From Tetramitus jugosus (Eukaryota > Heterolobosea > Eutetramitea > Acrasida > Vahlkampfiidae), in NCBI GenBank assembly GCA_937625935.1, contig OW569394.1:124001-188000 (forward strand): a stretch of DNA of 64,000 bases, in the 5' to 3' direction. How positions within the stretch are numbered: position 1 is the stretch's first letter; the number at the start of each line of letters is the position of its first letter. Position numbers and translations under genes: made by a program. Of the stretch, positions 29,528 to 54,528 are shown in pieces. The notes under the pieces are model-generated. The model ran no database searches. It worked only from the letters and a program-made list of their open reading frames with translations, and was not told where the DNA came from.

Positions 29528-32500
29528 TTAGATGAAGTGTCTTGCTTTCTTTGCAGCTCGCAGAGCATTCAAAGCTGAAGTGGACGGAGATCCAATTAAC
29601 TCCATTTCACTATTCGAATCAGATGTGGTAAATTCTGTTACGTCAGACATTTCAATTTCAGCCTGTCTTGCATACTTTCTTGAAAACATTGCCTTAATTC
29701 TGTTGTCCTCACCGTCGTCCACCTTGTACATCTTTCTGGCGACACTCGCAAATTGATCATCCTCCAGAGAGGTCACATTCTTGTCCAGAACAAATTCAAA
29801 TTTCCAAGCGTCCAACTTTGCTTGCATTTCTTTCTTTCTCTTGGCAGATAACAATCTCCAGAGAATGAAAATGATCACTGGAATGAGGAGAGCAAAGAAT
29901 AAAAGGAAGAACAAACTTCCTGCGATGGAAGAAACCGCAACTACTACACCCTTTGTGTATTGTTTGACTTGATCAACAGGAGTAGGTGGTAGGGGTGCCA
30001 TATTCTTGGGAATGTTGGTGATATTGCATTCAAAATATTGACAAGTAACCCATACTCTATCTATTGAAGCAGTTAGGGTCATAGTGTTTTGTTGTAAGTG
30101 TCTCGAATCTTGTTGGATCAAGCTCTGAGCGATAGCTAAGTGACCCGTAGACAACATCTTTTTGAAAATTTCTACTTGGGGCCTCTCTGTGTTGGCTGAT
30201 ACTTGACATATTTGAGAGTACCCTTGCTTGACACTGGCATCAATTCTCCATGGTTCGTCTGGTAGAGGACTGGAAGCATTTGAAGACACATTTTGAATTG
30301 AAAGCCATTCATAAAACAATGTTTCGTTCATATTCAGCATTTCAACCTCGGGTCTGACCAATTTCAATGTTAAACTATGAGGTACCCCCATTGTAAAAGA
30401 TGGACATCTTACTCTCGAAGTGAACACACGATCCCCAAGTTGATATGAGGAGGATATGGTTTGAGATCCTGCTGCATCAACAGTGATACTGGCGAAAGCG
30501 TTATAGGTATGATCCAGCTCCGATGTATACCATAACTCCAAAAGGTTTCCAGTTTGTCCTGGATCAATTATGAACTCTACCACTAGTTGTTGATCCAAAG
30601 TCTTGACTAGAGGCGATTTAGAGCGGAACATCGCTCTCGTATGAGAATCAGAAAGATAGGAAGTTAATCTGGAAATGGAACGACTTGATACTTCATCAAA
30701 TGGTATCCATTCCGTGGTGATGTCATCTTGAGAAGGGAGTATTGACTCAAATGTATCATAGAACGAATTGTGATCGAATGAGTCATAGAAAGCTAATAAA
30801 CTCGTATCAATGTAATAGAAGAATGCAGGTGTATCTTGGGACGAGAATTCTCTATTCATCATTGTGACAGTTACTTGAACAACGTTATTATTGGCACCTT
30901 CAAATAGAGGAACAGGACACTCAACATGTCTCTTATCGATGTTAGTTGACATCACATCTATTGCTTCCTCCTCACCATTGAGTTTTTTCCAGAGGAATGT
31001 GCATGTAATATTCTTTTCCTGTGAGAACCAAGGTGCGTATAACGAGATAATGTCTCCCTGTTTCGCTGTCGTAGGACTGATACTAATGATACTTGGTTGG
31101 AAGTACACGAGAGAGAGGCCTTTCTGAGGAACACCTGTGGAGTTTGAGACTGAGTATATTAGAAGATCGGTAAATTCAACACTTCCCCTGTCTGACGGCC
31201 ACTTGAAGGATGGTTTGAAGCATGCGTCTCCTGTGAGACCTATAGAGCTACACGCCACAAGATTTGTGGTAACTTTTACATCAGAGATAGGATCAATCAA
31301 AGAAATTTTCGATTGGCCATCTAAAGTCAAATGTTGACCTCCTAGTCTTATCCATGAACTGAGCATCGAATCGGCAGGGATACCAGATGGTGATAAACTA
31401 TCAATGAGAGGTTCCCAATTTCCGATGATAGTGAAGAATTTATCATTCAGGTCTCTGGGGTACACTGATGGCGAGGCATCGAATGCTTTGTTCTTTGGAA
31501 CAATCATTATAAGTCGCTTCTTCAGGTCATTCAGGTACACGTGGGAGTTTGACTCGTATTTCACATCTGCAAAAAATCCACCCGCCAAGTCAGTAACAAG
31601 AGATAATTTATCCCCACTTATTCTCGATAAATAGGTTCTTCGTAGAAGATGAACGGATCCATCCACATACATTAGCGCTTGAACATCAACTATGGAGGGG
31701 AATGATTTAAAAACAATCAATTCTGAAAGTACTCCTGACGAGGTAACTTGTAAGATGACCACTTTTTCTGTTGTTCTCTTTCGAGCAAGTAAGTAAATAT
31801 TTCCGGTTGTAGTGTCAATAGTGGTGAACCTGTTGTTACTACCTCCTGTGAGAGGAGTGTATAGAGTTGTCGAGAACACTTTGTCACCACTCTTACCAAA
31901 CAAGCTCACAGAGTGAATCCTTATTTCACTCTCAAGGGAAACTACAATCATTGAATTAGCGTTGACAAAAACAGCTGACATGTTCATATTTTCGATCTTC
32001 TGGTCGGGTAATGGTCTTAGCAGTGTCAATGCTTCGGAGTTAACGGTATAGATTCCATCATCTCTCAACAAATAGAAAGATTTTGAGAACTTGCTATAGA
32101 AGGTCCCAGAAGAATTCAGTGTTCGGAAGGAGTACATGGCTCTACCACAATTGAGATCCACTAATGAAATATTTTGTGACGGACCATCTGGGAGAGAAAC
32201 CAGTAAAAATTCACTGCTGGTGTCACATTGACTCCGCACAATCTCACAATCAGATCCAGCGAAGCCTGCTAGACATAAACACTTCTCGGGAGCTATGCAA
32301 CTGCCTCTACCACTACACACATTTGTGTTGTTTCCAAATATTTGATTACAAATTGGAATGTTGCAGATATCGGATACATAACCATCTACACACCTGCATG
32401 TATTTGGTTGTATACAAGATCCGAACCCAGAGCACACATTTGACTCATTTGAGAGTCGTCCATAGCACTGTACAAGTTGACAGCGATCACCATTATAACC

Positions 32501-35500
32501 ATTATTACACGAGCAACGGTTTGGATCTACGCATGATCCGGCCCCGTTACAAACAGAGTCATTTGATGCAGGGATACCAAAGCAGATAGGGATTGAGCAA
32601 TTTGTGCCAGAATACTCAGGAACACACGAGCATGTGCTTGTAGTGTGTTCTTTTTCTGGAAAACAAACACAAGTGTCAGGTGCGATACAGTGCCCATTCC
32701 CACTACATACTAATGGATCAGACTCATTCTTCGAGTAACAAATATTGAGTTGACACTCATGACCTGTGCGACCTTCGGAGCATTTGCATTTATCAACACC
32801 AACACAAGTACCATTTGAGGAGCACACAGACGAATCAGTTTCGTTAATTCCATAGCACATTGATAATTGACACTCTATACCTGTTCTTCCGAATGTTCTG
32901 CTACAGTTACACGTATCAGCTGACACACATGTTCCAACACCAGAGCATGTATCCCGATGATCATATGGAATTCCGAAACATATTGGATCAGAACAATCAC
33001 TTCCTTTCCATCCATAAGAACAATTACACCTATCAACAGAATAACAACTACCATGACCACTACAAACCATAGGATCTGTTTGATTCTTCCCGAAACAAAT
33101 ATTCCACTTGCATTCGGTTCCCGTTCGCCCAAAGTCACATTGACAAGTGTCAGTGAATATGCATGAGCCCCTTCCAGAACATACTTCTTGATTATTTGAT
33201 GCAGGAGTTCCAAAACAAATCGGAATATTGCAATCAAATCCTGTCCATTGATTAAAGGAACAATTACACTTGTGCGGTCCAATGCATTTACCATGACTAT
33301 TGCACACAAGTTCATCAGTTTCATTGAAACCGAAACAATAATTCAACTCACAATTAAGTCCTATTCTACCCTCACTACACAAACAGATGTCAGGTTCATA
33401 GCAGAATCCATACTTCGAGCATACGGATCTATTTGTGCCCCAAACATCATAACACAAAGGAACACTGCAGTCTCTGCTGACCCAACCATCAGTACAATTA
33501 CACTTATCTGGTTTATAGCATGAACCATGAGTAGAGCACACCTCTGGAGCCGTAGTATTAACTTCAAAACAACTAGGGTAGTAGCATTCCAAACCAGAGT
33601 ATCCATAGCTACATTCACAATTATCTGGAGATGTACATTTACCATGATTTGAGCAAACATTTACTGTATCGTTGGATAGTTTTCCATAGCAGATAGGGTA
33701 CTGGCACTCATTTCCCGCAAATCCACTATCACAGACACATTCATTCGGTGAGTGACACACACCATGTCCTGAACAAACATAGTGATCAACATCTAGTCGT
33801 CCATAACAATCAATATACTGACAATCAGTTCCATTGTAGCCTCGTTGACACAAACATTGATCTGGCTGCTGACAGTAGCCTCGCCCATGGCAAACATTTG
33901 TGTGGTTATACTCCAGGATACCATTGCAGACGTTTTGTTCGCATTCCAATCCACCATAACCGCGAGTACATACGCAAAAGTCGATATTGATACAGTTTCC
34001 ATGTCCTAGATGAGAATTACATGATGGGGGGACAGTTGTTAGGTTTTTCCCGTAACAAGTCAATGGGACACAGAAGCCATCCGCATCAAACTTGGTGAGA
34101 CATGTGCAATTGTTAGGTGACACACACGTTCCATTCTTTCCATAGTTACAAGACGCTGGATTGGTGGCATTCAACCCAAAACAGATCGGAGTGCTACAAT
34201 AAGGATCAGTGTATCCAGTCGTACAGTTACACTTACTGGGAGTGAGACATCGACCATGTCCAGAACAGTCCTTGCTGGTGGACAATACTAAATCAACAGA
34301 AGTAGCTGGGGCTTGATAGATGGTTTCAATTCCAGTAATTCTATCAAAATATCTGCTGTAGCAAACAGGATAACTGCAGTTACCTCCTGTATATCCAGGA
34401 ATAGGAATAGAGTAGCACATACACACATCTGGATCAATACACACTCCCTTTCCACTACAAACCAATGAATCATTAGTGTTTCGACTGTGGCATATTGTGA
34501 ATTGGCAGTTGTTGCCATTGTATCCTCTCGTGCAGTTACACACTCCTGGTCCGATACATTGACCATGAGAGGAGCACACAGCAGGATCATTTGATGGGCG
34601 ACCGAAACAATTAATATATTGACAACGATCACCGGACCACTTATTGGGATCACAAATACATGTGTTCAAGTATTTGCACTCTCCTCTTCCTGAACAAACA
34701 TTCGCTGTATCAGTCATATTGAATCCAAAACAAGAAGTGAATTCACAATTAGTACCAGAGAAGCCAGATTTACACACACACGTATCCCAATCAGTACATG
34801 TTCCATTTCCAGAGCAAACATCAGGATCATCTTGAAGAACATTGAAACAAGTTTTTCCATTGAATAGAGCCAGAGAATGAGTAAATCCCAATGAGAAGAA
34901 CTCTGTGTATCTCTGTGTAAAATTAGACGCAGTGATCTCTGGGACAAGTTTGTTTGTTTTTGAGTAATCACCTAGTTGGCCAATGTAATTGCTGCCCCAA
35001 GCCAATACCTTTCCAGTGTCAGTCAGCGCAAATGAAGAGCCGTACCCACTAGATGCAATCTCAACAATAGTATAACTAGAAAGGAATGTGAGTAGATTCG
35101 GTAGGCATTGAGCATCTGTCGTGTTGATACCTAGTTGCCCTTTGTCATTAGCGCCCCAGCACCACACTTGTTTCTTGCTTGTCAACGCGCAACTAAAGTC
35201 TTCACCACCAGACATTTTCTCAATCGACTCTGACTCCAAACCTTTCACTTTAACAGGAACAGAGGAGAGAGAAGTGGAAACACCTTGGCCCAATTGACAT
35301 TTCGAGTCATCCCCCCAACCGTATAATACTCCGTCAACAGTTGTTGCGAGCGAATGATAAGCACCCACAAATACACAGACCGCTTTTTTGATACTGAAAA
35401 TGCTCATGACACGAATAGGCATTAATTTTGACTTAATATTGTCAAGTGTTCCATCTCCCAACTGCCCAAACAGGTTCCCTCCCCAAGAGTACACCTCTCC

Positions 35501-38500
35501 GTGAGCAGTGAGAGCCAAACAATGGGTGCTTCCGCACGATGCAAACGACACTCTCGTTGTGTTTAGGGAAGAGATGATTACAGGAGAGTTTTGTGATGTG
35601 CTCTGGTATCCAAGACCGAGCTGACCTTGCTGGTTGTTTCCCCAAGTATACAATGACCCATTCTTTGTTGAGACTACGACCGATGAATAACCAACAGCAA
35701 CATTTGAAACGGTTAAATTTTGTTGAGAGTACAATGAAAGTACAGGAGAAGACTTGCCACTCAGTGTTCCATCGCCCAACTGACCTTGGGTATTAATTCC
35801 AACAGAATACAATTTTCCATCAACGGTTAGCGCCACTGAAAATAAGTTTCCAGCACCGACAAATTGAATCGGTATTGTGTTCAATGATGCTGCTTTGATA
35901 AAGAAATTAGTGCTAGAAACTCCTCCATTTCCCAGTTGCCCGCTTGTGCCATCTCCTGTTCCATACAAGTATCCAAATCTTGTCTCATTACAGTTCTGAC
36001 CTCTGAAATTTGGGTGACAAACACAAGTATTGTTGGGAATGCACACGCCATTTCCGGAACACACCATTAAATCAGTGTTACTCACTCCATTACAAAATAA
36101 TTCACTGCAATCCTCTGCTGAAAATTGTTCCTCGCATGCACATACATCATCGTTTGTGCACAAACCTCTACTGGCGCAAGTATTCTCATCATCTGCTAAA
36201 AATCCAAAACATGATGTTCCATTGTACAGGAACACTGTGTGTTGGAGAGAAGGTGCGATATGAACAATGGAACGAATGGGATATTCATTCACCACGGGAA
36301 CGGGACTTGAGGAAGAAACAGTTCCACCATTTCCCTGTTGACCTTGAAGATTAAATCCCCAAGAATAAGCTGTGCCATTCATTGTCAACGCAAACACATA
36401 ATTTCTCCCTGCAAAGATGGATGTTGTTTTCTTGTCGACTCGAGGATCCAAGATTGGTACTGGAAGTCTTCTTCCTAGAATATTCGTTACCCCATCCCCT
36501 ATTTGGCCCTGTGACGCCCCTCCCCAAGCAAAGATTGACCCATCAGAGAAAACTACATATGTATTTTCTTCTGAGCCTTCAACAGAAATTGCTGTCTTTC
36601 CTTTAAATTGAGAATTGAGGACAGGAATGGGGGAGTAACGATTAAAGATTGCCCCATCTCCCAATTGACCGAATGAATTCGAGCCCCAGATGTAAATTAC
36701 ACCAAAAGATCCGATTCCCATCATGTGATTCCAACCTGATGCAATCTTTGAGATTGGTATCTGATCTAAAATTCCAAGACCAACTTGTGTGGGAGTAGAC
36801 AATGGCCAGTTATCTCCATTTCCAAGCTGTCCGTTTGAGTTCGATCCCCAAGCAAAGATACTGCCATCATCAATGAGAACTGCAGTATGCGCTTCTCCAC
36901 AAACAGCTTGGACAACCTTTCGTCCTGCAATTTCACCTGCAACTTGAATGGGTGAGTGATTATCATTTGAATCTCCATTTCCTAATTGTCCACGATTGTT
37001 CCTTCCCCAGGTAAACACTCTTCCATCAGAGTCCACAATCACTGTGTGAGAATATCCAGTGCATCCTGTCATAGCATTCACACTGCTCATTCCGAGAGGC
37101 GAAACGGGAGTGAATCTTGTTGCCGTGGTACCATCACCCAACTGGCCATAATTATTCAACCCCCAACCAAACACTTGACCAGATGGTGTGATTGCAATTG
37201 AGAAATCCTTGCCTGAATCAACATGCGAAACAACGCGGCCAAACAAGTCTCCAGTGACCGGAACAGGCAATTTATGAGAGAAAGTGTATCCATCACCCAT
37301 TTGACCGGAGGATCCTTCTCCCAAAGCGAAGGCAAATCCATTGACAACTCTTTCACATTTTGTTCCAATATATCCAGGACGGCAAACACAAGCATCAGCA
37401 GCAAGACAACTTCCCCTGCCGGAGCACGTTAAAGTATCATTCGGATAATATCCAAAGCAATGGAATGAGCTACAATCTGGAGCATTATATGGGAAATCGC
37501 AAATACACTTATCCTGATCAATACAACTTCCTTTGGTGGAACAAACTGTTGGATCATCTGCAAACTTTCCAAAGCAAGTGGTGCCATTGAACAAGTAAAT
37601 CGAAAAATTATCACCAGCAACTGATGCTGTGGGATAGATACTTTGATATTGTTTTTGGACTTGAACAGCTGACATTGTTGTTGAATTGTAACTTCCATCG
37701 CCCAATTGACCGTACATGTTGTCGCCCCAAGCTATGCTTGTTTGATTGTCCAATAGAGCATGAACAAATGATCCACCTGCACTAATGGTCAAAACTCTGA
37801 TATCATCTGGTATGACTGTCACTCGTGTTGGAATTTGCTTGCCAACGGTTGTACCATCTCCCAGCTGACCTGCGTTATTTGCGCCCCATGAATACAAAGA
37901 TCCATCAAACGCCATAACCATTGAAAATGAGTCACCGGCAGTAATCTGAGAAACTGGTTTTCCATACAATAGTCCAGGAACTTGCACAGGCAAAAATTTG
38001 TTTGTTTTTGTGCTGTCTCCCAACTGTCCTTTGTCATTTTTACCCCACGCGTAAACAGTTCCATCTGATCCCAATGCCATCGAGTGATACTTTCCTGCAG
38101 TAATCTGAACAATTCTCTTGTTTTTCAACAAGGCAGCAACTTTGATTGGTGTGTATTTGAGAATGAAGGAGTTGTCTCCCAATTCTCCATCAAGGTTGAA
38201 ACCCCAAGTGTACACGGATCCATTGAAAGAAAGTGCCATGCTGTGATAACCTCCACAGGCGATTGCAACAATATCTTCTGTCAATAATTCACCTGTGACC
38301 CGAGTTGGAGTCAATTGCAAATCTTGAGGAGAGTTAATACCGATCTGACCGTATTGATTGGAACCCCAAGCAAACACTTGACCATTCGCTTCTAGTGCCA
38401 TAGCATGAGACACACCACCACACAATCCAATAATATTTGATCCGCCAAGAATATGTTGCTGAATTCCTTTGGAAAAGGTGGAATTATCTCCAAGTTGACC

Positions 38501-41500
38501 TCTATCGTTCCTTCCCCAACTGTAAATTTCGCCACTTACTGTCTTCAGAAGGGAGTATTCATATGATGGCGCAATCAAGTTGATCAAAACTGTCGAAAAA
38601 AGTGTTGCTCGGTCGACAGTTGGTCGAAAACCAACACCTCTACTACCTAACTGAGAATATGAATCTTGACCAGAAGAGTACAAGTAACCAAATGATTCTA
38701 CTTCACATCGTCTTCCAGAATACCCTTGATAACAGACGCAAGTATCCAATGAAACACATCTTCCTCCACCAGAGCAAACATTTGATTCGGTTGCATTAAT
38801 TCCAAAGCATTGAGCCACACTACAGTCCCTTCCTCCATAACTCGGAGGACACTCACAGTGATCCAGTGCAGTACAATTACCTCTCCACGAACACACTGTA
38901 GGATCATCAAACACAATACCAAAGCATGAAATTCCAGAGAAAAGAAACAGAGAGTGCTTCTTTCCTGCTGACATACTCGTGATATATCTCTGAGGCTTCG
39001 TGTTTCCAACAGCAGATGAAAAGTTTCGACTGACAAAGGTATAATCTCCCAATTGACCATCATTATTGACACCCCAACCATAAGCTGTTCCATTCGATGC
39101 GAGAGCAAGAACATAATTGGAGTTCTTTCCAATGGCAATTGAAGTGATTGGATAATCAGTTTCAAAGGGAATCTGAGCGGGATACTTTCGATTGATTACT
39201 ATTGAATTATCGCCGAGCTGCCTATTGGGAATGTTTGATCCCCAAGAATATGCTGTTCCATTCTTCAATAAAGCATAAGAACTATCAATTCCTGCACCAA
39301 TCGATATGACCGGTTCAGGACCAAAATCATTGCGTTTGACTGCGAAGGGCACGATTCTGGAGTAAGTGTATCCATCCCCCAATTGCCCCATTGTATTTTT
39401 GCCCCAAGAGTAAACTGTTCCATCTTGATTCAGAGCAAGTGAATGATAAATACCTGCCGCAATGGCAATAATATTCTTGTTATTCAATGATCCCTGAATC
39501 AACGATGGTGCAGTTTCGAATGCACTTGTAAATCCTCTTCCAAGTTCTCCATCACCATTTCTTCCCCAAGAGAATACTTTGCCCTTTGATGAAAGAGCAA
39601 GCGTATGTGCCTGACCACATGCAATATCAATGATTACTTCTGATCCAAAATATTGAGTTATGTTCACTGGAGAAATATATTGTTGGGTGTTTCCTGTTCC
39701 AAGCTGACCGAATGTATTAATTCCCCAAGCATACACATTGTTATCAAAATCAATTGCTAGTGAGTATCCAACGCATGCAACAAGATTGATAATCGATTTT
39801 CCTTCAAGAATAGACACAGGAAAATATCTTGTAAAAGTTGTGTTGTCTCCCAGTTGACCATAATCATTGTTACCAAAAGCAAAAACACCTTCAGTCAAAC
39901 TGACAGCAAATGAACTTCCATCTCCTGCAGAAATATAGTTGATATCTGTGAGAGCCAACAAACTGGCTTGTCTTGGATAGTTTTGAGAAACAAAGAATCC
40001 ATCTCCCAATTGAGAACTGGAATCATCACCAGATGCATACAGAAATTGTCTATCATTATTGTTGCACATTGCACCAAAATAACCAGCGTCGCAAAGACAC
40101 ACGTCGTTGAAGATACATCTACCATGACCTGAACAGACAAGTGCATTATCTGACCATGTACCATAACACTGAGCAATCGAACAATTAGACCCAGTGTAAT
40201 GATTGTCGCAAACACAAAAGTTGTCTGAGACACAAATACCTCTGAACGAGCAAACACTTGGATCATCAGCCAACACACCGTCACAATATGTTCCATTGTA
40301 AATCATCAGTGTGTGAGCATTACCAACGCCAAATGACACCACGAAACTCGTTTGATCTTGGAATCGAACAAGATGATGAGGAGAATACGCAGTAACTACA
40401 CTCATGTCTAATCCTAAATGTTTTCTTGTATTATCACCCCAGGCGAAGCTTACACCATCTTGTGTTGTTGCTTCAACAGAGTTTGACCATATGCTTGATG
40501 AAATAAATGAAACATTGACCAAACCATTCACTTGCATTGGGATTGTGAAAAGATCAACTGTTGAGTTAATACCAAGCTGACCGTTTGAATTATCACCCCA
40601 TGAAAACAATTTTCCGTCTTCTGTTGTTGCATACGCAGATTGTTTGCCTGATGCAATTTTGGTCACTGCAATCTTGCTGAACACTCCTTTGATCAACCTT
40701 GCATGAAAAGTGTTTGCAATGTTGGTTGTGCCATCAGCCACTTGTCCTCGAGAATTATCACCCCAGACAAACACTTTGCCTCGATCAGTCAAGACCATGG
40801 AGAATTTATCCCCTGCAGCAATTGAGATCACTTTCTTATCACCAAGTGGTTCTCCTATTGCTGTATTGACCTGTAACAGCTTTGGAGAGTTGAGATAAGA
40901 GCCATAGAATGATTTATCTCCCAATTGAGCATTGTTATTTTGACCCCAACCATAAGCAAATCCATTGGATGTTCGCGCAAGTGTGTGCTGGGAGCCACAT
41001 GCGAGCTCAACAACTTTACCACCAGAGTAATTGTCTGCTGGAGGGGTCACCATCACTGGATTGTTGCTCCAATAAAATGCACTATTTCCGAGAACTCCTG
41101 ATCTTGTTGGACATGCACCTGGACTGATGCATGGACATATTGTTTTTCCCAACGGAAGCACAACAGTTTTTGATCCCGTTGTATTTGTGCAACTCAAGAC
41201 TCCAAAAGTGTTCACACCCCAAGTGTAAATCACATTGTTATCATCAACCGCAGCGACATGATAAGTGCTGACACACATGTGAATGATATTGGAAAGAATT
41301 TTTTCTGGTCGATTCCTGTTCATCAATATTCCATCACCCAATAAACCAACTGTCACGTTTGAATAACTCCAGACAGCTCCCTTCCCCCAAGAAAAGAGTT
41401 CGCCATCCACTGACAGACCAAGCGAGATATCCACTCCAGATGTTGCATGCTTCACATATTTCCAATAAGTTAATGGAGCTGCCGTTGGTGCTGCAATCAA

Positions 41501-44500
41501 CTTGGCATCATAGTAATCATCTCCCAATTGGCCCTTTGAGTTATCACCGACTGAATAAAGAAGGCCATAAATGGATATCTCACATTCTCGACCAGTAAAA
41601 TAAATCTGGCATGCACAAGTATCGCGTGCAACACATGATCCATGGCCAGAGCAGACATTGCTATTGGATTGATTCAAACCAAAGCATACATTGATACTGC
41701 AATCAGCTCCAAGGTATTCTTCCTCACAAATACAATGGTCAGTTGAGACACAAGTTCCTCTTGTTGAACAAACACTTTCATCATCAGATAAGATCCCAAA
41801 ACAAAATGTTCCATTCAGAAGAAACATGGAATGAGAAGATGATGCTTCTGCTGCCACGAAAAAACTTGATTCATATGGATTCAACACTTGTGAAGGAGAT
41901 AATCTGCTGATACTCGTGCCATCACCAATCTTGTTAAAAGTGTTATCTCCAAACCCGAATGCTGTGCCGTTTCGTGTGACCACCAACGCATACTTGCTCC
42001 ATGTGCCAGCTGATATGCTCATGACTTCCTCCACTCCTTGCACAACAGTGGGAATATTTTGGTTGATTGAGGAGTTGATTCCCAACTGACCTGCGTCATT
42101 TTCTCCCCATGAGAACAGAGTTCCATCAGAAGCGATGGCATAGGAGGATCTTGTTCCTGCAGCAATCTGAATCACGCTCTTGCCAAACAATTGATTCATC
42201 ACTTGTCTTGGGTGTCGATTATTAAGTGTTGAAGCATCTCCCAATTGACCTTTGCTGTTATCGCCCCAAGTGTACACTTCACCTCTGCTTCCAAGTGCCA
42301 TGCTGTGATACTCACCTGCTGCAATGGCAACAATTTTGACTTCTGAAAGAATGCCTTTGATTGGACTGCTTGCACCAACTCGAACAGGTATCGTTTCCTT
42401 TCGTACCAAACCATAACCAACTGCTCCATAGGTTTCATCATCACCAAAACCGAACATATATCCTTCTTTTGTCAAAACTAATGTGTGCACGTGACCACAT
42501 GCCACTGTAATTGGTGTTCCCAATAATTCCGATACTATTGTTGGTGAAGAACTGTACTGTTTGGAAGCACCAATTCCCAATTGACCTGCAATTATTGAAG
42601 CAGTATTTGTTGTTCCATCCATTGTATTCACTCCCCAAGAATACACTTCACCAGAGCTTGTCACTGCTGCACTATGATAGGATCCCCTACAAACACTTAC
42701 AACTTGCTTTGATGAGAGTATTCTACTTGGAAAGAGTTTTGAAGTACCATAACCCCATGAAAATAGTTCTCCAGTAACAGTGATTCCAAATGATGCATCA
42801 ACGCCTGAGCTGATTTGTTGAACAAGAGTCCTATCGGCCAATGATTGATACGTTTTCGTCAACTCCGTCCTTGCAATTGTGTAATCATCTCCCAATTGGC
42901 CATAATTATTGTTTCCAATTGTTCGAAGTGAACCAAACACTGGCTGATCGCAGGCTTTTCCAGTGAAACCAACTGAGCACTTACAAGTATCATGATCAAT
43001 ACATGACCCATGACCAGAACAAACATCCAAGTTTGTGTTGTTCAATCCAAAACAAGTTGTGAATTGACATGCATTTCCAAAGTAATTGTTGGCACATACA
43101 CATATATCTGTCTCTGTGCAGTTTCCTCGAGTTGAACAAGCCATCACATCATCCATCGGATATCCAAAGCAATAAGTGGTGTTCAAAACCAAAACACTGA
43201 AAATATTTCCCGTTGTTGCAGCAACAATCTTCCTCGTTGGATAAGGATTCACAACAAGTGTTGGTGCTCTCTTTGATGTGATTGATCCATCATTTGCCTG
43301 AGAATTAGTATTGAGTCCCCATGAATAAGCTGTTCCATTTGATGCAATGGCAATCACTGTTCTTGAACTTGTCGCAATAGAAACGATACTCGCACCAGCT
43401 AAACTTGATACATGTGTTGGAATGGAGACAAACGAAACGGTACTGTCAATACCCAGTTGGCCAACTGAATTGTCACCCCATGAATAAATTTGACCATCTG
43501 ATGTCAACACGTAGGATGAATAATCTCCTGCGACAACTTGAATGACTGGCAGACCGAGTACTGTTGTAAACACTTGAATAGGGTGTCGACTGTCTGTTGT
43601 TGTTCCATGACCCAATTGCCCTTTGCTGTTGTCACCCCAAGTGTAAACATCACCTTTGCTTCCCAGAGCAATGCTATGATAGAGACCGGTGGAAACTTGA
43701 ACGACTCTGACATTGGAGAAGATGTCTCGAATTGGACTGCTGGCTGCAACCACAACTGGAGAAAGTGAATTCGCCCAATTTCCAATTCCCAATTGACCAT
43801 TTGAACCTTCTCCCCAAGCATATAACTTTCCTGATGAAGATAGTGCTATTGTATGTGAAGCTCCACAACTTACTGAAACAATTTGAGCACTGAGTGAAAC
43901 TTGTCTTGGAGTTGCGGAAAAGTAGTAAGAGCCTCCCAATCCCAGATATCCTATTATTGGTGGATAGGTGTAAGGATTACATGAGCAACTTGTGTCAGAG
44001 CAATAGGAAGTATTGGCAGGAGTACCAAGTGGACATGTCACTCGTCCATCTTGAGTGTTGCTTCCCCAAGAGAATACATTTCCGAGAGAATCAACAGCAA
44101 CACCATGATACTTTCCTGCGCAAGCACTGACAATGCTGCGATCAGAGAGAAGTTGAAAAGGTCTCAATGAATCTGTGGTCGTTCCTGTTCCCAAGTTGTA
44201 AAAACTGTTCTTTCCCCAAACAAACAACTTGTTCGTTCTGGAAACTGCAACAGTGAAATCCACACCAGCATCAATCAATTGGACATGTTCACCATATGAA
44301 AGTGGATATGATGTTCTTGTGAGAGTTGATTGATCAAGATAGTAATCATCTCCCAATTGACCATCTGAATTGGCACCAATTGAATAGCTTTCACCAAACA
44401 ACCAAACACTGCAATTTTTACCAGTGTATCCAGAGGCACATGAGCATGAATCATGCGAAACACATTCACCAAAACCAGAACAGACAGTTGGATCAGTGGA

Positions 44501-47500
44501 ATTGACTCCAAAACAAGTGGTCAAGCCACAATCGCTACCAAAGTAATCAGATTGACAAGTGCATGTGTCAGTTGCAACACATTCACCTCTCCATGAACAG
44601 ACAAAAGGATCATCCGAGAATAAACCAAAACAGAATGTTCCATTGAGCAGGAAAAGAGAGTGTTGAGTGCCAGCAGCCACTGCAACAATCGATCTGTTCG
44701 TGTATGTTTGTGTCACTGGATTGGCATAAAGTTTCAGTGTGGGTTGTGGTGTAATGATTTTGTCAGTCACTCCATTCAACAATTGATAATTGCTTCCCAA
44801 TCCCCAACCAAATCCATCTCCATTCAAATCTCCTGCAATCACAAAATCACTTCCAAATCTGCTCGATGACATTGTATTGATGGGCATTTGATTGTTCAAG
44901 GCAACTGGATTTGCTGTCTGTGCGACTGTTGAATTGATACCCAACTGATAATTTGTGTTGCTTCCCCATGCAAACACACTATTATTTGAACCAATCACAA
45001 AAGAAGAAAATGTTCCAGCACTGATGGATTTGATTGGAATTCTGTACAATGGAGAACTCACAATCTTCTTTGGGAATCGACTCAAGTTGGGACTTCGGAC
45101 AAGGTCATCTCCAATTTGACCATTTGCATTGCTACCCCACACGAATACTTCACCCATAGAGTTGAGGGCCATGCTGTGGTAGGAGCCAGCAGAAATTGCA
45201 ATGATTTTCACATCACTCAGAGTTCCACCTGATGCTAATGAGGGTGCCACTCGTACTGGAATAAAAGATCTGACATTTGTGCCAAAACCACCATTTCCCA
45301 ACTGACCATAAGTGTTGTCACCCCATGCCCATACTGCTCCACTCGACATCAACGCTAAGCAATGATACAATCCACATGATACCGAAACTGCTGTTCCAGT
45401 CATGCCAGTGACTTCTCGAGGTGTAGCACTGAAGAAATATGATGAACCTAACCCCAAATATCCAAGTATTGTTGGATTTGAAGTACAACTGACTGATGCA
45501 GAGTTCACACAACATTGTGTTTCTGTGCATTTTGCTGTTTCAGAAGTCCAATAGTCGTTACCATAAATATTTATCCTTCTTTGTTGGTAGTCATAGTCAG
45601 TGTCACATGAAAGAGTGTTGCAACCCCAAGAATAAACTTTTCCATCATCAGTCACTGCAACAGCGTGGTATTGTGCAGCTGAACCAGAAACAAACTTCAG
45701 GTTAGATTTCAAAATTGGGCGGATTCTTTGGATTCTCCCAAAGCCATTGACGGAACCGTAATAATAAAAATCTGAACCCCAAGTGTACAACTCTCCCTCT
45801 CGCGTGATAGCAAGCGAAAAATCCAATCCTGCAGACAAAAACTTCACATACTTGTCAGTGGAAAGTGGCAACGAAGTTGTCACAAGAATTGAACGATCAA
45901 TCTGCAAATCATCTCCAAGCTGTCCATCACTATTCTTTCCTGCCCCATAAATATATCCCATCACTGGTTTATCACAATTACTGCCAGCGAAAGAATCAAT
46001 GCAAGAACAAATGTCAAGTGCAACGCACGTTCCACTTCCAGAACAAACAGTTGAGCTATTGGAAGGAATATCGAAGCATGTTGTCAGCTCACATTCATTT
46101 CCATAATAACCAGAATCACAAGCACATCGATCCTCATCAACACATGTTCCTCTCCAATTGCACACCAATTCATCATCTGCCAATATGCCATAGCAAATTG
46201 TTCCGTTCAACAAGAGAAGTGAATGTGTACTACCTGCTCCAACACCTACCAAATATGTGGAGGGATAGTTTTCATTCACCACTTGCTTCACTGGTTGCAG
46301 TCTTGTTGTTGTGCTCTTATCTCCCAATTGAGAGAATGTGTTGATTCCCCACGAGTATCCAGCACCCGTTTCATTGATGCCAGTGACCCAAGAAGTGATC
46401 CTGCTGGGATACAATGCTTTAAAGTGGACATCATTGATGTTCTGAACAAATCCAGGCAATGATCTGGATGTACCTGCTGAAGAGTCACCCAATATTCCAT
46501 TCGTGTTACTTCCCCATGAATAAACTTGACCCTTGTTCGTCACTGCAAAAGAACTCTGGACAGACGCAGAGATATGCACAATTAATTCTGTGGTGATAGC
46601 TCCTGTTGCCAGAACGGGGACATTTTTATCCGTTAAGGTGGTATCGGCTAATTGGCCCATATTATTTCTTCCCCAAGAATACACTTCTCCATACTCTCCC
46701 AAAGCAAGTGAGTGATAATCACCCGCGGCAACTTGCGCAATATTAGTTAGTCCTAATACTTCCTGAGCAATTGCGAGGTTTGATGTCGATCCCACTCCTA
46801 ATTGACCAGCTGCGCCATACCCAAAAGAGTAGACTGTTCCAATATTGGTCAGAATTAATGTATGATATGCTCCACATGCGACCGACTTTGGAATTTCACC
46901 AGTATCAAACAACGGAGACGTGGTGAGCCCATATGAACCCCAAGTTTGAACAGTGCCATCCTTCTTGATGGCAACCACTCGGCCAACACCAGCACAACAA
47001 TCAAGAACATTGCTTGATATCTTTTGAGGTCTATCATTGTCATTGATAGATCCCCATGAATACAAATCACCAACTTGAGAGAGTGCAATTGAAAAATAGT
47101 TTCCTCCATCAACTTTGGTCACGATAACCTTTGTCAAAAGTCCACCAACCAACAGAGGAATCTGTGAATAACCCACGGAAGGAACATCATCATTCGCCAA
47201 GACACCATTGGATTGTTGACCAATTGAATAAGTGATTCCGCGCACTTCTTTCTCGCAATTCAAACCAGAGTATCCTGGATTGCACAAGCACACATCCACT
47301 CCTGCGCACACTCCTCTCCCAGAACAAACAGAAGAATTATCTCTTGCAATTCCGTGGCACTCAAAATAATCGCAGTTCAACCCACTGTATCCCTCTTCGC
47401 ATAAACATTGATCAAATGTGCTACAATTTCCATGATAAGAGCAAACAGATGGTTCATCCGCTAACACTCCATAGCAAGATTTGGCAAGATCATACACAAT

Positions 47501-50370
47501 CAATGTATGAACACATCCCACTGCCATGCTTAAAACTTGTCGATCAGGAAAATAAATGTGATAGTTAACTGGAGATATTCGTTGAATGCTTGTTCCATCT
47601 CCCAATTGACCAAAATTGTTATTTCCCCAAACATAGGCAAGAGAATCAGAGATTGCACTGACATGAGTCTGAGAATTACAAACTCCAGCAAATATCTTGG
47701 ATACAATTTTGTTCGAAAGAGGAACAGCCACTTTCTGGAAACTTAATGCGTTTGTTGTCGAGCCAATTCCAAGTTGACCATTTAAATTATTTCCAGATGA
47801 GTAGAGAAGACCATCAGCGATTACATGTGATGAATAACTGCTGGCAGCAATTCCAGTCACTTTTTTTGATGCCAGTACTCCTGTGTTTAACGCAATGGCA
47901 CGTGTTGCTGTGTTTAGTGTGCCATCACCCAGTTGGCCAACAGAGTTTTCACCCCAACGATACAGCGTTCCATCGTCTGCAATCACCATCGTGAATGATC
48001 CTCCTGCTGCAATTGCTGCCACTCTTCTTTTGTAAAATAATCCAGTCAATAAAACAGTCTGAGGAAGTGTCTTCTGCGCAGTTGTGCCATCTCCCAACTG
48101 CCCGAAGTGATTTCTCCCCCATGCAAGAACAGTTCCATTACTGAGAAGAGCAACGCTATGATATGAGCCACATGCCATAGAAACAACTCGTTCACCCGTG
48201 AGAGCACCTCCTATTTTAACTGGCGTGGATGTTTGAGCAGTGTTGCCAGTGCCCAATTGACCATAACTATTGTCTCCAAACGACCAAACACTTCCTGTTT
48301 CATCAACAACCAATGAATGAGTTAACCCTGCACACATAGTCACAGTGGGTCCGTTGAATGATCCTTCAACTTTCACTGGACTGCTTCTTGGTGTGGTCGA
48401 ACCATCTCCCAACTGACCATAATCATTCTTTCCAACTGAAAAGAGTGTGCCATTGACCAATAATATCAAAGAGTAAGACATGCCAGATGCAACAGAGTTG
48501 ATGTGTACTCCAGCAAATGCAGAAGAACTAACAGGAATCATTCTGGACACACCATTCCTTCCCAAGTTATCTGCCAATTGTCCAAAACTATTATCGCCGG
48601 AAGCATAGAGGAAACCTTCATCTTTCTTTTCACAATTCTGACCTGAATAACCTTGATGACACAAACAAGTATCAATTGTTAAGCATTGTCCATGTCCAGA
48701 GCAAACCATGTTATCTGATGCATTCTTGCCAAAGCAATAGGGCAAACTACAATCTTCACCTGTGTATCCTGTGTCACACTCACATTTATCAGTGCCCACA
48801 CAATCTCCATGACTGGAGCATACTAATGGATCCATCTTGAAGATTGAAAAACAAATATCGGAATCAATCAAGTACATAGAATGAGCGGATCCAGGACTAA
48901 CTTTGGAAACAGTGCTCAAAGCATAAGGTGTCCCAATCATCCTTGGAGAAGCGTAATCACTTCCTGTCGAACCTATTCCAAACTGGCCATTCATGTTATT
49001 TCCCCAAGAAGCAACGGAAGTATTCGTCACAACAGCATTTACATTTTCGGCAGCAAATCCTGAGAACACTAACCTTATGGGCACATCTGCCAAGATAGTG
49101 ACCAATACTGGGGATAATGATTTCGTACCTATCCCAGGATTTCCGAGCTCTCCATATCCATTGTGTCCCCAAGAATAAATTCTTCCATCACTCAAGACAG
49201 CGAATGTTGATATCTTTGATGCCGTGACGGATACAACCGAATTTAACAGTGTAAGAAGAAAAGGCTTGCCCTGACTAATTACTGAAGAATCACCGTTGCC
49301 TGATTGCCCCGATTCTGTCCCACCCCAAGTCCAAACATGACCTGCACTATCTAATGCAACATTGTGCCTCTCTCCTGCGGCAACGTCAACCCATCCTACG
49401 TCATTGGAAACAATAGTAGGAGCAAAGTTACCAGAACCTGTGGTTCCTTGAGCTAATTGACCGTCGACATTTCCACCCCAAGCAAATATTGTACCTGCTG
49501 AGCTGAGTGATATGGAATGAAACTTTCCACACATTACTTTGATTACGTTTGTAAATGCTGCAGGGCCACTCACCTTCTTTGGAGAGTAATAATTGGTTCC
49601 AGAAGGAAAACCAAGCCATCCAGCAGTAGCTTTCCCACTATTTGTTGCATCATTTGTTCCCCACGCGTATACATTTCCATCAACATCAGCTGCCAATGCA
49701 TGATAAAAACAAGCAGAAATCGAAACAATTCTCTTGTTTTGCAAATCACCTCTAAGAATGGAGGGAATGGCTTCAGAAGCAGAAGTAAATCCGAGTCCCA
49801 ACTGACCATAATTATTCGCACCCCATGCAAACACTTCGCCCTTTGTTGTGAGCGCAAGGGAGAACCCATCACCAGATGAGATGACTTCCACTCTCATTAA
49901 ACCAAAATAATCTCCCACTCGAATCATTGTGGAAGTGGTTAAACTCGTAAACAGTGGATCTCCCAACTGTCTATAGGCGTTATTGCCCGATGAAAACACA
50001 TGACCTGATCCTCTCGTGGCACAATTTGGCAAATCATATCCATCATGACACAAGCAAGTATCAGTTGCGATACAGAAACCATGAGCCGAACAAACAGAGG
50101 CATGACTTGCTAAAACACCGTTACAAGAAGGTACCTGAGCTAAGATAAAGAACGCACAATCACATGATGAAAAATGTTAAAGCACGAATCACAAACACAC
50201 CACAAGCAAACCACAACAAACATACCATATGTTACATTGCAACTCCATAACAACAACAGTAAAAATATCGTTGAACTCAGAAATGATATAGTTTTTGAGA
50301 CCTTAAGCATCATCCTTGGGTCTCGTTTTTTCTTCTTCTTCTTCATGTTGGAACTGAGGAGAGCATTCAT
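29528..50370 (-). CDS. giant single-pass RCC1-propeller/EGF-repeat surface protein
   Basis: Exon 1 (50370-50226) encodes a basic leader and signal peptide (ISFLSSTIFLLLLLWSC...VTYA); an 86-nt GTATGT...TTAG intron follows; exon 2 (50139-29528) is one open frame of 20.6 kb. Total about 6918 residues. One EGF-like module opens the mature chain, then eleven blocks of RCC1/ATS1-type repeats (pattern G-vy-WG-N--GQLG ... i--i--G--HS-al), separated by ten pairs of EGF-like modules (C-g----d--VCS-hG-C---d-C-C--G--G--C). A 21-module EGF array follows (about 34860-32230), then a beta-rich region with IPT/TIG-like segments (about 31400-30850), a further ordered domain, one membrane helix (VVVAVSSIAGSLFFLLFFAL, about 29930-29850) and a tail of about 120 residues. 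It is probably a plasma-membrane adhesion or sensing protein; function is inferred from architecture only. Alternative ATGs lie at 50346 and 50313. Confidence 0.85.
32230..34860 (-). repeat. tandem array of 21 EGF-like modules
   Basis: A period of about 40 residues (120 bp) with consensus CfG-n-sd--VCSghGsC---d-C-C--Gy-G--C. Modules near 34.2-34.4 kb and 32.6-32.7 kb carry extra residues; the latter contains an additional CSC segment. No RCC1 repeats occur inside. It ends at a single Cys-containing linker before the beta-rich membrane-proximal region. Confidence 0.85.
34860..50139 (-). repeat. eleven-unit array of RCC1 propeller plus EGF pair
   Basis: Large-scale protein-coding repeat with a period of about 1.13-1.57 kb. 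EGF pairs fall at about 48.62-48.85, 47.25-47.49, 45.96-46.21, 44.38-44.64, 42.94-43.18, 41.58-41.82, 40.05-40.30, 38.69-38.94, 37.35-37.59 and 35.99-36.22 kb. In each pair the first module usually reads CFG---DD--VCS-RG-C and the second CFG-N-----VCSGHG-C, so the two types alternate in register. Each propeller starts with 'Y--G-NS-GQLGDD' and ends with a 'HS-fl-NGT-CfG' strand. Confidence 0.85.
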
Positions 50371-51075: not shown

Positions 51076-54000
51076 TTAGTTGTACATGGAATCGAACCGT
51101 TGTTCAATTTCGTCAGTTGGAGCTCTAACTTGTTTCTTTGGCTCAAATTTTGACTTGTTCGTGCTCAATAGCTTGAAAAAGATGATGGCAGCAGTTCCAA
51201 CCGCAAGTAATGTGATGATGACCACTACGGTAAAACAAGCCAGCACAATGAGAACAATTGCATATGTTTTCAAGCCTTGATTTCTTCTCTGGATGGAACA
51301 TCCACAAGGATTGGAACAAATGTCGCCACTTTCTGTGATCACAGACTCCGAAGATTGAATATAGTCCAATGAAACAGTGTGACTCACTGGCTGAGAACAA
51401 ATGCATTGAACCAATGTGTCATTGCTGTTCTTTGATGTTGTTTGTGTTCGACACACTTTTGCATCTTGCAACCATTGTTTGTTGTTGGTATTCAAATACT
51501 TGCATGCATACTGATAGTCTTTGGTATGATTGCGAAGAGAAGATGCGAGGCTGGGAAGACTGAGAGATGATTGAGTCAATGTTGGCGAGTCTACCGACTG
51601 AATTAGTTGTTGGTTTTCTGTGAACAACTTGGTTGAGACTGTAGGAGACACTCCACTGGTGTTACACTTGTTTGAATACTGATCCGGAGGATTTGCAATC
51701 GCTTGTCCTTGCACAAATGAGACATTTCCATTCGCCAGAGTGTCACGATTGAGTACGATTTGAACATATCCAGTATTTGTGTTCGTGTTGCTTGAAGACG
51801 GATGTCTCACAAGGATTGTTGTTGTTGTGTTGGTTCCAATAGAGGTCGAATTCAACTTTGAGATCACAGTTTCAAGATTGGGGAATGAAATCTCTTGTGT
51901 TTGACCTTCAGTCATGTTCTTACGAACCTTGTCAGTCAACACAACAACCATCGATGAGAAGGATTCTCTTTGAACATTTGAACTGTTTGTTGAAATCATC
52001 ACATTGGCCAAGTTGTGAGCAACATCGATAGAGTCGATAATTTTTGAATCGTTTCTTTGAATCGAGTTGATCAAGATCAATGAAGTCTGAATGGTTGATA
52101 CCTCAGAGAGATAGTTGAATTGTTGGGAGATTGTCTTAATTGTTCCAATTTGGATGGTCGTACTCAGTTCATCACCCTTTGATTGAATAATATTGATCAA
52201 GTTGTTCAACAATTGAGAGGTTTGGTTCGATGTTAGGGCTTGAATCGATGTGACCAAAGAGTTGGTGTACGTTGTAAGTAGAGATTCAAACTCTGTTCCA
52301 TTTCTATGAGAAAGATCATTGGCTTTCTCAGTCAAAGCATTGGTCACCTTTGATGATTCTCCTTGATACACTGTGACAATGGTTGTTGATTCGGAAGTTT
52401 CACCATTCTGGAATAAGGCTTGAGCGAACAGAGTTACATTTCCAAGAACCGAGAGTGTGGTATTAAGAGTGGGATTCCTTGTGTTACTAACGAGAAATAC
52501 TCGATTGTTACTTCTATTGATATAACCAAAGCTAAACAATACATCTCCAGGATAACTAATGTTTGAATTCAGCAAAAAGTGGTCATAGAGCATGGCACCA
52601 GAGTTAGGTACGACCGCAACGTTCATTTGTGGGGTTTTTGGGATCAGCATGGAGAGTACTTTGGATGAGATGATATTTGTTGTGGTGGCAATCTGGATCG
52701 ATACGCTAGCAGTGTATTGATGATTCCTTGCTAAGTCGGCGAAAATATTTTGAATTGATTGAATAGGAGAATGGAGGGTGTAGACGCTACTATAAGTTCG
52801 TTCATCAGTTGAATTAAGATCCCTGACAGCCCAATTAACATTAGCAGTTACAAGAAGATTTCCTGAAAACGCGATTGTTACGTTCAATGCCCAATTATTT
52901 TCAAAGAGAAGGCCTTCAATTGCATTGGATTCGAACCACAGAGTCGCATTAGACTGCTCACAATACTTTCCTAAATATCCTAGATTGCAAAAACAAGTAT
53001 CATTCAGTCCACAGGAACCTCTTTGTCTACAAACAGTTCTGTCATTCGAGGAGATTCCATCGCATAGTGTATACTGACAATTGAAACCGGTGTACCCCTC
53101 ATTACAAGTGCATGTATTATTTTCCACACAACTTCCCCTGCCACTGCAAACGCTCGAGTTAGAGGAATCAAATTCAAAACACGTGATAGGAGGTAGATCC
53201 ATTACCTCCGCGATAAAGTTAAATGTGGAGTTACTGGAGAGGTTTCGATTAGAAGGAAAGATAAATGCAAGAGGCGATTCACTTCGCCCTAGCACAGAAA
53301 CGTAACCATCCTTTCCAATGGATACTTCCAAACCATTTGTAGCAAAATTGTTGTACACCATGATTACAGCATAACTTGAGTCAATTTTGTTCAGCTTCGC
53401 AACGTAGGCAGTAGACTCAGAGTTCTGACCGAATGATTGCAATGAACCTGTCAAATATATTGATTCATTCATGCCATATGCTATTCTAGGAATTCCACTT
53501 TCCATATCAAACAGAACTGCCCTATGTGAGTTGAAAATGAGGTTTGTTTTGTTGAAGTCATACCTCTCCAAAGAGCGGGCAACAGGAGATGAAACGATAG
53601 AGATATGCAATGATCCAAAATATTCTGCATCGCTTAATGATATACCGATTGGAATAGCATCATTAGAGTATGCAGTAGTGCCCAATTGAGAAAAGGTGCC
53701 GTTATTTGTTCTCAAGCTTGCAACGAAAAGAGAAGGGTCAGGTACTATTGATGGAATTGAACCAAAACCTGCATGTCCAATATCTTGACGACCTGCAACA
53801 TAAACGAGATCAGAACGGCATTTCACTGATGTAATAGTTGCATTTGAAATGGCTGAGGCCCACACACATGATCCAGAGTAATCGAATTGTGAGATGAAAC
53901 TGTTAGCACCGGGGGATGGATTCACTCGTGCACAACCAAATGGAATGGTTTGATTTATGGAACCAGCGAGATAAATAATATCTTCATTTTCAGCTGGATC

Positions 54001-54528
54001 GCAACAACTACGAGCTTCAGTTACAACAACAGAGTTAAGCAGAGGAGAATTAAGCACCTTACTCCAAAGAACGCTTCCAAATTTATCCACTTTGATAATA
54101 AGGACAAAAGGGCTCTCATCACCGCTCGTTCTACGATGAAACAGTGGAAAATCATTGGTACAGTTTGGAAACACCACAATGACACCCTTCTGATCACAAC
54201 CAGGCAAGAAAATGGGAACAAAATGAACATTTCCAGTGTCAATCTCCATCATCCAGTCATACTTTGATTGAATGGCATCATACTGGGCCAGAATGGTTTT
54301 CTTTGTGAAATTTCCAGTTGGTTCATCCTTGTTCTTGAAGGATCGATAGATGACAGATTGGCGGTCAACTTTTATTCCAGTGATTTGATAGTGGTCAGTG
54401 ACATCATCAATAATCGAAATGGTTCCAAAAGTAATGGAACCACGGGCGAAAGTAGGTGAACAAAGAGCTAGCACTAGTGCAGCTAGAACGATAAAACTCA
54501 GCTTGAGAATACCGTGAATGTGTGACAT
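51076..54528 (-). CDS. single-pass surface protein with EGF modules and GPS-like box (copy 1)
   Basis: From the ATG at 54528 (MSHIHGILKLSFIVLAALVL, signal peptide) the protein has 1150 residues; the frame is open upstream but the paralogue supports this start. The N-terminal 440 residues are beta-rich with propeller-like strands (FVLIIKVDKFGSVLWSKVL, DIIYLAGSINQTI). Two EGF-like modules lie at about 450-528. A long Asn/Ser/Thr-rich helical region follows. A cysteine box at about 1008-1041 (CKYLNTNNKQW...VC...VQCICSQPVSH) has the C-W-C-CxC spacing of a GPS motif, without the HL(T/S) cleavage triplet. One membrane helix (about 1083-1113) and a short tail ending DEIEQRFDSMYN complete it. The overall plan resembles a GAIN-bearing adhesion receptor without seven-helix part. 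Many N-glycosylation sequons are present. Confidence 0.75.
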   Translation of the reverse strand: MSHIHGILKLSFIVLAALVLALCSPTFARGSITFGTISIIDDVTDHYQITGIKVDRQSVIYRSFKNKDEPTGNFTKKTILAQYDAIQSKYDWMMEIDTGNVHFVPIFLPGCDQKGVIVVFPNCTNDFPLFHRRTSGDESPFVLIIKVDKFGSVLWSKVLNSPLLNSVVVTEARSCCDPAENEDIIYLAGSINQTIPFGCARVNPSPGANSFISQFDYSGSCVWASAISNATITSVKCRSDLVYVAGRQDIGHAGFGSIPSIVPDPSLFVASLRTNNGTFSQLGTTAYSNDAIPIGISLSDAEYFGSLHISIVSSPVARSLERYDFNKTNLIFNSHRAVLFDMESGIPRIAYGMNESIYLTGSLQSFGQNSESTAYVAKLNKIDSSYAVIMVYNNFATNGLEVSIGKDGYVSVLGRSESPLAFIFPSNRNLSSNSTFNFIAEVMDLPPITCFEFDSSNSSVCSGRGSCVENNTCTCNEGYTGFNCQYTLCDGISSNDRTVCRQRGSCGLNDTCFCNLGYLGKYCEQSNATLWFESNAIEGLLFENNWALNVTIAFSGNLLVTANVNWAVRDLNSTDERTYSSVYTLHSPIQSIQNIFADLARNHQYTASVSIQIATTTNIISSKVLSMLIPKTPQMNVAVVPNSGAMLYDHFLLNSNISYPGDVLFSFGYINRSNNRVFLVSNTRNPTLNTTLSVLGNVTLFAQALFQNGETSESTTIVTVYQGESSKVTNALTEKANDLSHRNGTEFESLLTTYTNSLVTSIQALTSNQTSQLLNNLINIIQSKGDELSTTIQIGTIKTISQQFNYLSEVSTIQTSLILINSIQRNDSKIIDSIDVAHNLANVMISTNSSNVQRESFSSMVVVLTDKVRKNMTEGQTQEISFPNLETVISKLNSTSIGTNTTTTILVRHPSSSNTNTNTGYVQIVLNRDTLANGNVSFVQGQAIANPPDQYSNKCNTSGVSPTVSTKLFTENQQLIQSVDSPTLTQSSLSLPSLASSLRNHTKDYQYACKYLNTNNKQWLQDAKVCRTQTTSKNSNDTLVQCICSQPVSHTVSLDYIQSSESVITESGDICSNPCGCSIQRRNQGLKTYAIVLIVLACFTVVVIITLLAVGTAAIIFFKLLSTNKSKFEPKKQVRAPTDEIEQRFDSMYN

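Follow-up and report, generated by a model that had tools for sequence, protein, structure and literature searches.

A giant predicted surface protein alternating RCC1-type propellers with EGF pairs in a heterolobosean-like protist

The window analysed here, a stretch of 64,000 nucleotides (C51:124001-188000) from an assembly of 26.3 Mb in 56 contigs, carries on its minus strand a very long ATG-to-stop frame of 6,799 aa (49927-29528). This ATG is internal, and the frame stays open 5' of it up to a splice acceptor at 50140. When a predicted first exon (50226..50370, minus), which supplies the start codon and a signal peptide (MNALL...CNVTY), is joined to the long exon by removal of a predicted 86-nt phase-1 intron (50140..50225, minus; GTATGT...TCTTAG), a protein of exactly 6,918 aa with no internal stops is obtained. 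The signal peptide was judged from hydrophobicity and by eye rather than by a dedicated predictor. A similar signal-peptide exon, joined in phase 1 from a GTATG donor, could be drawn in five of the six family genes tested, including the window gene and excepting C43, by a script that admitted phase-1 joins and listed donor words only and left two to three possible acceptors per gene.

From its N-terminus the predicted protein comprises the signal peptide, one EGF module, eleven RCC1 blocks with ten EGF pairs between them, 21 further EGF modules, a C-terminal ectodomain, a helix and a tail. The initial annotation had described a chain of about 6918 residues with a signal peptide, eleven RCC1-type blocks separated by EGF pairs, 21 further EGF modules, one membrane helix and a short tail; each of these elements was recovered, and the observation of the giant RCC1-EGF protein as a whole is confirmed. 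Hydrophobic peaks were found at the signal peptide, at aa ~6777-6816 and, weakly, at aa 389-412 within block 1; the last was taken for a propeller strand, leaving a single C-terminal candidate for a membrane helix. The ectodomain holds 93 N-glycosylation sequons, a mild excess over shuffled sequences (76.9 +/- 7.7).

The RCC1 blocks, each of 353-447 aa, are all encoded on the minus strand. Block 1 (aa 89-477; 48854..50020) matched WD40_RLD at 5.6e-99, the lowest E-value of any block scanned, and RCC1 at 1.6e-53, and has seven repeats. It is followed by block 2 (aa 552-936; 47477..48631), block 3 (aa 1011-1363; 46196..47254), block 4 (aa 1438-1884; 44633..45973), block 5 (aa 1959-2371; 43172..44410), block 6 (aa 2446-2827; 41804..42949), block 7 (aa 2902-3333; 40286..41581), block 8 (aa 3408-3786; 38927..40063), block 9 (aa 3861-4236; 37577..38704), block 10 (aa 4311-4691; 36212..37354) and block 11 (aa 4766-5145; 34850..35989), with Cys-rich inserts in blocks 4, 5 and 7. 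A Pfam scan, one of the checks proposed with the initial annotation, covered blocks 1, 3, 4, 9 and 11 singly and blocks 1-3 also as one piece of 1386 aa; both RCC1 and WD40_RLD scored above cut-off in every block scanned (6/11). Since block E-values reach as low as 5.6e-99, a chance match is excluded. A repeat HMM, which is partly circular as it was built from the giant protein's own repeats, found 70 RCC1 repeats, seven each in blocks 1, 2, 6, 8, 9, 10 and 11 (7/11 blocks), six each in blocks 4 and 5, five in block 7 and only four in block 3; for blocks 5-8 and 10 the assignment is that of the repeat HMM.

Structure prediction, likewise proposed as a check, was carried out for block 9 with its flanking EGF pairs. 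The model closes into seven four-stranded blades of the RCC1 type; it represents one of the eleven blocks and was computed from an alignment of ten sequences, all taken from the giant protein itself. Block 9 is also the most conserved block, with 62% identity to its counterpart in the database protein P0001 and 74%, 79% and 71% to those in the family frames C51a, C22 and C40.

Forty-two EGF modules were counted in the giant protein by an HMM of its own, 21 of them behind block 11, and Pfam EGF_2 and EGF_Teneurin scored above cut-off in its EGF parts. The first, single module (aa 54-88; 50021..50125, minus) precedes block 1. Each of the ten inter-block pairs measures 74 aa with 12 cysteines. 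On the minus strand they lie at 48632..48853 (between blocks 1 and 2, aa 478-551; EGF_Teneurin 2.3e-15), 47255..47476 (2-3, aa 937-1010), 45974..46195 (3-4), 44411..44632 (4-5), 42950..43171 (5-6), 41582..41803 (6-7), 40064..40285 (7-8), 38705..38926 (8-9), 37355..37576 (9-10) and 35990..36211 (10-11). The pairs flanking block 9 are part of the structure model, and the remaining ones, like the first module, were identified with the EGF HMM. The array of 21 modules (aa 5146-6013; 32246..34849, minus; EGF HMM, EGF_2 1.8e-66) directly follows block 11. When ten EGF-block-EGF units were aligned, the EGF-to-propeller joint was gap-free in 10/10 rows, indicating that the propeller-EGF units stand in strict register. 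The EGF cysteines are conserved across these units (except that the last row, whose closing module is cut, misses its final cysteine), a pattern that would fit passage through the secretory path.

Behind the array lies a private C-terminal ectodomain (aa 6014-6776; 29957..32245, minus), with long matches in eight frames of the genome, its own included, and in two database fragments. The last 898 aa of the giant protein matched no Pfam family at E<=0.1. An IPT/TIG-like region had been noted here by the initial annotation: the giant protein itself gave no TIG match at that threshold, but Pfam TIG matches two of nine aligned family C-termini (best E 9.1e-7), and a putative IPT/TIG-like part can be placed by eye from the family alignment at 30809..31099 (minus). 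A structure model of the C-terminal domain, built on three sequences, was unusable (mean pLDDT 48). The structures that matched it best in the PDB (50 listed, with GH43 enzymes and DDB1 among them) reach a TM of only 0.11-0.20 and were not interpreted. A twelfth propeller at aa 6021-6230 was considered and rejected on this basis.

The predicted membrane helix has its core at aa 6787-6807 (29864..29926, minus), as judged from hydrophobicity and a tail alignment, and is followed by a putative cytoplasmic tail (aa 6808-6918; 29528..29863 with the stop, minus) that carries the motif KLDAWKFEFVLDKNVTSLEDDQF..AR.MYKV. Among the 14 tails compared, the motif, written in full as KLDAWKFEFVLDKN-SSLEDD-F--AR-MYKV, is whole in six (the window gene, C51a, C22, C40, C43 and P0122) and partial in C24, C15, P0001 and P0121; the tails of P0002, P0003, P0004 and the C38 frame showed no trace of it.

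Several other genes of the window deserve mention. On the minus strand, 51076-54528 and 55432-58743 encode tandem, similar single-pass proteins of 1,150 and 1,103 aa with a hydrophobic start, a C-terminal helix and a common tail end, APTDEIEQRFDSMYN; next to the giant gene there is thus another family of surface proteins. The 1,150-aa protein has an EGF pair in mid-chain (Pfam EGF_2, EGF_Teneurin), and the 1,103-aa protein matched no Pfam family. The plus strand encodes a protein of 1,248 aa (16891-20637) that begins with a hydrophobic segment and has a single internal helix and a Pkinase match (2e-46), the layout of a receptor kinase; a DUF2817 family protein of 430 aa (8731-10023; 3.1e-67); and an RCC1-like protein of 463 aa (13816-15207; WD40_RLD 3.1e-24, below its cut-off; RCC1 1.9e-9). 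Elsewhere, C14:174621-177998 encodes an intracellular-looking RCC1 protein whose front, judged by eye, is RhoGEF-like and whose end resembles a FYVE zinc finger; the genome therefore also has the usual kind of RCC1 protein. One 362-aa exon of the window's GDI, used as a query, showed 62% identity to Willaertia, 60% to Naegleria, 59% to Acrasis and 59% to Percolomonas, the closest among named organisms, and up to 95% to database proteins. On this one gene the host would belong in or near the Heterolobosea, as a species other than those four relatives.

The giant gene belongs to a family. Its C-terminal 898 aa matched 11 places in its own genome, eight of them long, the window gene included. Read as DNA, the other long frames comprise C51a (C51:38-63k; 8,381 aa, 14 RCC1 blocks), C22 (6,971 aa, 11 blocks), C40 (9,248 aa, 16 blocks), C24 (6,312 aa, at least ten blocks, nine whole and one cut), C43 (5,514 aa, eight blocks), C38 (3,388 aa beside a second frame of 1,666, at least four blocks) and C15 (1,020 aa, no block). 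The last, with a hydrophobic start, few EGF modules (two by HMM), the C-terminal domain and a helix, is the smallest member seen. Where C51a and C40 exceed eleven blocks, every additional block matches unit 7, which is present in four and six copies, respectively.

In a protein database search, 617 of the 801 proteins scored passed E 1e-3, and among the best 120 of these 617, EGF families occur only in P0001-P0004. P0001 (7,087 aa) is colinear with the giant protein over 11/11 blocks, each block best matching its counterpart at 44-62% identity. The blocks of C22 stand closer, at 56-79%, so P0001 is regarded as a homologue with the same plan, one-to-one orthology being unproven. P0002-P0004, whose N-termini look cut, retain at their end the counterparts of blocks 8-11. 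Because these blocks are kept there as well as in P0001, the membrane-near blocks 8-11 are taken as the family core. The C-terminal part alone matched two proteins in a search over proteins of ~494-1,571 aa, limited to the 8,000 candidates sharing most words.

A different kind of relative lies on the same contig. C51c (C51:196898-211036; 4,713 aa), on the opposite strand and ~22 kb from the 5' end of the giant gene, contains blocks 1-6, an EGF array, a REJ domain (1.1e-37), a PKD-type domain (3.6e-7), a GPS (9.9e-11) and about eight hydrophobic segments; for the GPS part there is a PDB match to adhesion GPCR L3. Its block 1 is 71-73% identical to that of the giant gene, and blocks 2-6 are 94-96% identical; dS between the two genes is 0.05-0.15 in blocks 2-6 and 0.64 in block 1, against ~2 or more for other paralogues. 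The near-identity of blocks 2-6 points to recent duplication or to gene conversion or exchange. A second such sister frame, on C28 at ~38-50.6 kb, is 93% identical at the C-terminus and 88% in block 6, with one TAG within the matched stretch. A third (C51:259331-263623; 54%) has RCC1 matches in the same 2,598-aa frame. On C2, RCC1 and REJ matches that agree in frame length and position indicate two more RCC1+REJ frames (2,004 and 1,828 aa). Thus, as far as predicted domains tell, the RCC1-EGF type of ectodomain is combined with a single-pass end in some genes and with polycystin-like ends in others. For a protist with a genome of 26 Mb the polycystin/REJ-like repertoire is large, with 41 GPS and 44 REJ match rows genome-wide.

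Over the eleven blocks, dN/dS was 0.117 against C22 and 0.111 against C51a, both old paralogues, with synonymous changes close to saturating (pS 0.70 and 0.74) and dS undefined in one and four single blocks, respectively. Against C51c, blocks 1-6 gave 0.31 at dS 0.15. Single-block values ranged from 0.06 to 0.46 in the 23 of 28 comparisons that had one (5/28 undefined), and no sign of diversifying selection appeared at whole-block level in these 23. Estimated from codon comparisons, purifying selection thus acts along the blocks, and the low dN/dS indicates that the frame is maintained as protein across them.

Among known systems, the low-density lipoprotein receptor relatives come closest in plan. 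LRP1, LRP1B, LRP2 and LRP5/6 resemble the giant protein in being single-pass, with propellers alternating with EGF modules and several units per chain; in the account of PMC8469001, LRP receptors alternate six-bladed YWTD propellers with EGFs, LRP1/1B have an EGF cluster near the membrane, and LRP5/6 are also without NPxY. They differ in that the LRP propellers are of the six-bladed YWTD type, accompanied by LDLa modules and, in core members, NPxY tails, whereas those of the giant protein are of the seven-bladed RCC1 type. No YWTD (Ldl_recept_b) match at E<=0.1 was found in the six of eleven blocks scanned with Pfam, all of RCC1 type, nor any LDLa in the pieces scanned, and NPxY is absent from the tail. 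Membership of the LRP family is rejected on the propeller type of the blocks scanned and modelled and on the tail without NPxY; as the propeller type differs, the resemblance is read as a convergent plan.

The seven-bladed fold of the modelled block is shared by intracellular RCC1, HERC1/2, UVR8 and RPGR, which are nuclear or cytosolic; the giant protein is unlike these in its signal peptide, EGF partners and membrane anchor. The ectodomains of the plant receptors CRINKLY4/ACR4, which have one propeller and a kinase and neither EGF pairs nor a string, align to the modelled propeller, indicating that a propeller of this kind can serve on the extracellular part of a receptor. Strings of RCC1 blocks occur in database proteins (for instance P0007 and P0024, named as bacterial, and P0005) as 10-14 clusters per chain, mostly of six or seven RCC1 repeats. 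No EGF module was detected in P0005-P0120 by the giant protein's own EGF HMM, and their Pfam lists show other spacers (Fn3, cadherin-like, dockerin). By BLAST, each of the 11 blocks scored higher with such string proteins (128-213 bits, best of P0005-P0070) than with four RCC1 frames from its own genome (90.5-145 bits), one of which belongs to an RCC1+REJ frame. The string-protein set is far larger than the four frames and was itself chosen for resembling the query, and another program gives UVR8 211 bits with block 9; a bacterial origin of the propellers is therefore not concluded.

The features of polycystin-1 and adhesion GPCRs, namely REJ, PKD-type domain, GPS and a multi-helix end, belong to the sister C51c; REJ and GPS before membrane helices were not found in the C-terminus of the giant protein (no Pfam family at E<=0.1). 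PKD1 and aGPCR ectodomains are not known to carry RCC1 propellers. RCC1 is absent from the GPS/REJ/polycystin literature among the open-access matches listed. The giant protein recalls teneurins in that its EGF modules match Pfam EGF_Teneurin and EGF_TEN, but no teneurin-type C-terminus was found in its last 898 aa (no Pfam family at E<=0.1), and teneurins are type II proteins according to PMC6433969. No RCC1-EGF receptor was found among the open-access matches listed. For RCC1, EGF and Naegleria together, the only match names RCC1 as the strain of a virus host in the available text of PMC3482391, and the part available of the Naegleria pangenome mentions RCC1 once, for UVR8-like genes (n = 18; PMC9928731). 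The initial annotation considered such an architecture very unusual. What appears to be new is that RCC1 propellers alternate with EGFs, that they do so on this scale and that the arrangement also occurs on REJ-GPS ends; the alternation of propellers with EGFs as such is known from LRPs and the stringing of RCC1 blocks from bacterial proteins.

Taken together, the giant protein is probably a type I cell-surface recognition or adhesion receptor of a heterolobosean-like protist, with an exchangeable ectodomain. This reading is preferred because it accounts for the signal peptide, the EGF cysteines, the helix, the tail and the selection alike. The signal peptide would route the chain into the secretory path, and the eleven RCC1-type propellers, fixed in register by disulfide-bonded EGF pairs, would form a long extracellular string on a stalk of 21 EGF modules and the private beta-rich domain. 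If a propeller measures ~4-5 nm and an EGF module ~2.5 nm, the protein may be of the order of 150 nm long. The single helix would serve as anchor, the tail would couple the receptor to cytosolic partners, and the propeller faces would bind molecules on the surface of prey, of the substrate or of adjoining cells. Anatomy, the propeller fold of one block, conservation and purifying selection rest here on sequence or prediction; surface location, disulfides, ligand binding and tail coupling are inferred. The interpretation offered by the initial annotation, with prey adhesion or contact sensing as a possible role, is partly supported. According to PMC13197933, polycystin-1 ranks among the aGPCRs as an atypical member that has a GAIN domain, and adhesive and mechanical cues are likely aGPCR inputs. 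The REJ-GPS sisters suggest that in them ligand binding is converted into a signal, whereas in the window protein it would serve mainly adhesion, capture or uptake.

That the protein is instead a phagocytic or endocytic multi-ligand scavenger receptor like LRP1/LRP2, whose units would bind soluble or particle ligands and whose tail would drive internalisation, seems rather unlikely. Its single pass, propeller-EGF repeats, membrane-near EGF stalk and short tail do parallel LRP1/LRP1B as portrayed in PMC8469001, but the missing NPxY and the failure to find LDLa or YWTD in the Pfam-scanned pieces speak against it, and the GPS-ended sister genes point to sensing besides uptake. A structural coat, in which long fibres of a glycocalyx, cyst wall or flagellar hair would use the propellers as mere spacers, is improbable: retention of the tail motif in part of the family, block-specific conservation with its maximum in block 9 and reuse of the ectodomain on a REJ-GPS end would all be unexpected for a passive spacer, even if the great length, the strict unit register (10/10 gap-free joints) and the many paralogues of differing length would suit one.

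Low dN/dS (0.06-0.46 in 23/28 comparisons), with no sign of whole-block diversifying selection, makes quite improbable a repertoire for self/non-self or mating recognition, in which duplication of units and gene conversion would set the paralogues apart and so confer identity on cell types. Such a repertoire would agree with the four and six copies of unit 7 in two paralogues. It would also agree with blocks 2-6 having been exchanged or duplicated recently between two genes of the same contig (dS 0.05-0.15 vs ~2 or more). A very long open frame may also raise the suspicion of an assembly chimera, several genes or a pseudogene; given the same 11 blocks in a protein from another source (P0001), six further long family frames in the same genome, purifying selection on the blocks and a similar first exon in 5/6 genes tested, an artefact or decayed gene is extremely improbable. 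Several separate genes or a pseudogene were rejected in view of the one open frame, the colinear homologue and purifying selection.

Returning to the type I receptor, a wider reading is possible, if doubtful: a combinatorial recognition system in which propeller-EGF units are lengthened by one-unit duplication and recombined between single-pass adhesive ends and GPS-containing, polycystin-like signalling ends. If so, the cell would both hold and sense the same ligands. Independently of this wider reading, a propeller fold best known inside cells has been built, in an organism only distantly related to animals, into predicted surface receptors of very great size, the sister frame C40 reaching 9,248 residues and 16 propellers, against ~4,500 residues for LRP1. 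The family offers a testable case of GPS-type receptors in a non-animal lineage and of how single-celled eukaryotes put receptors together by exchanging modules.
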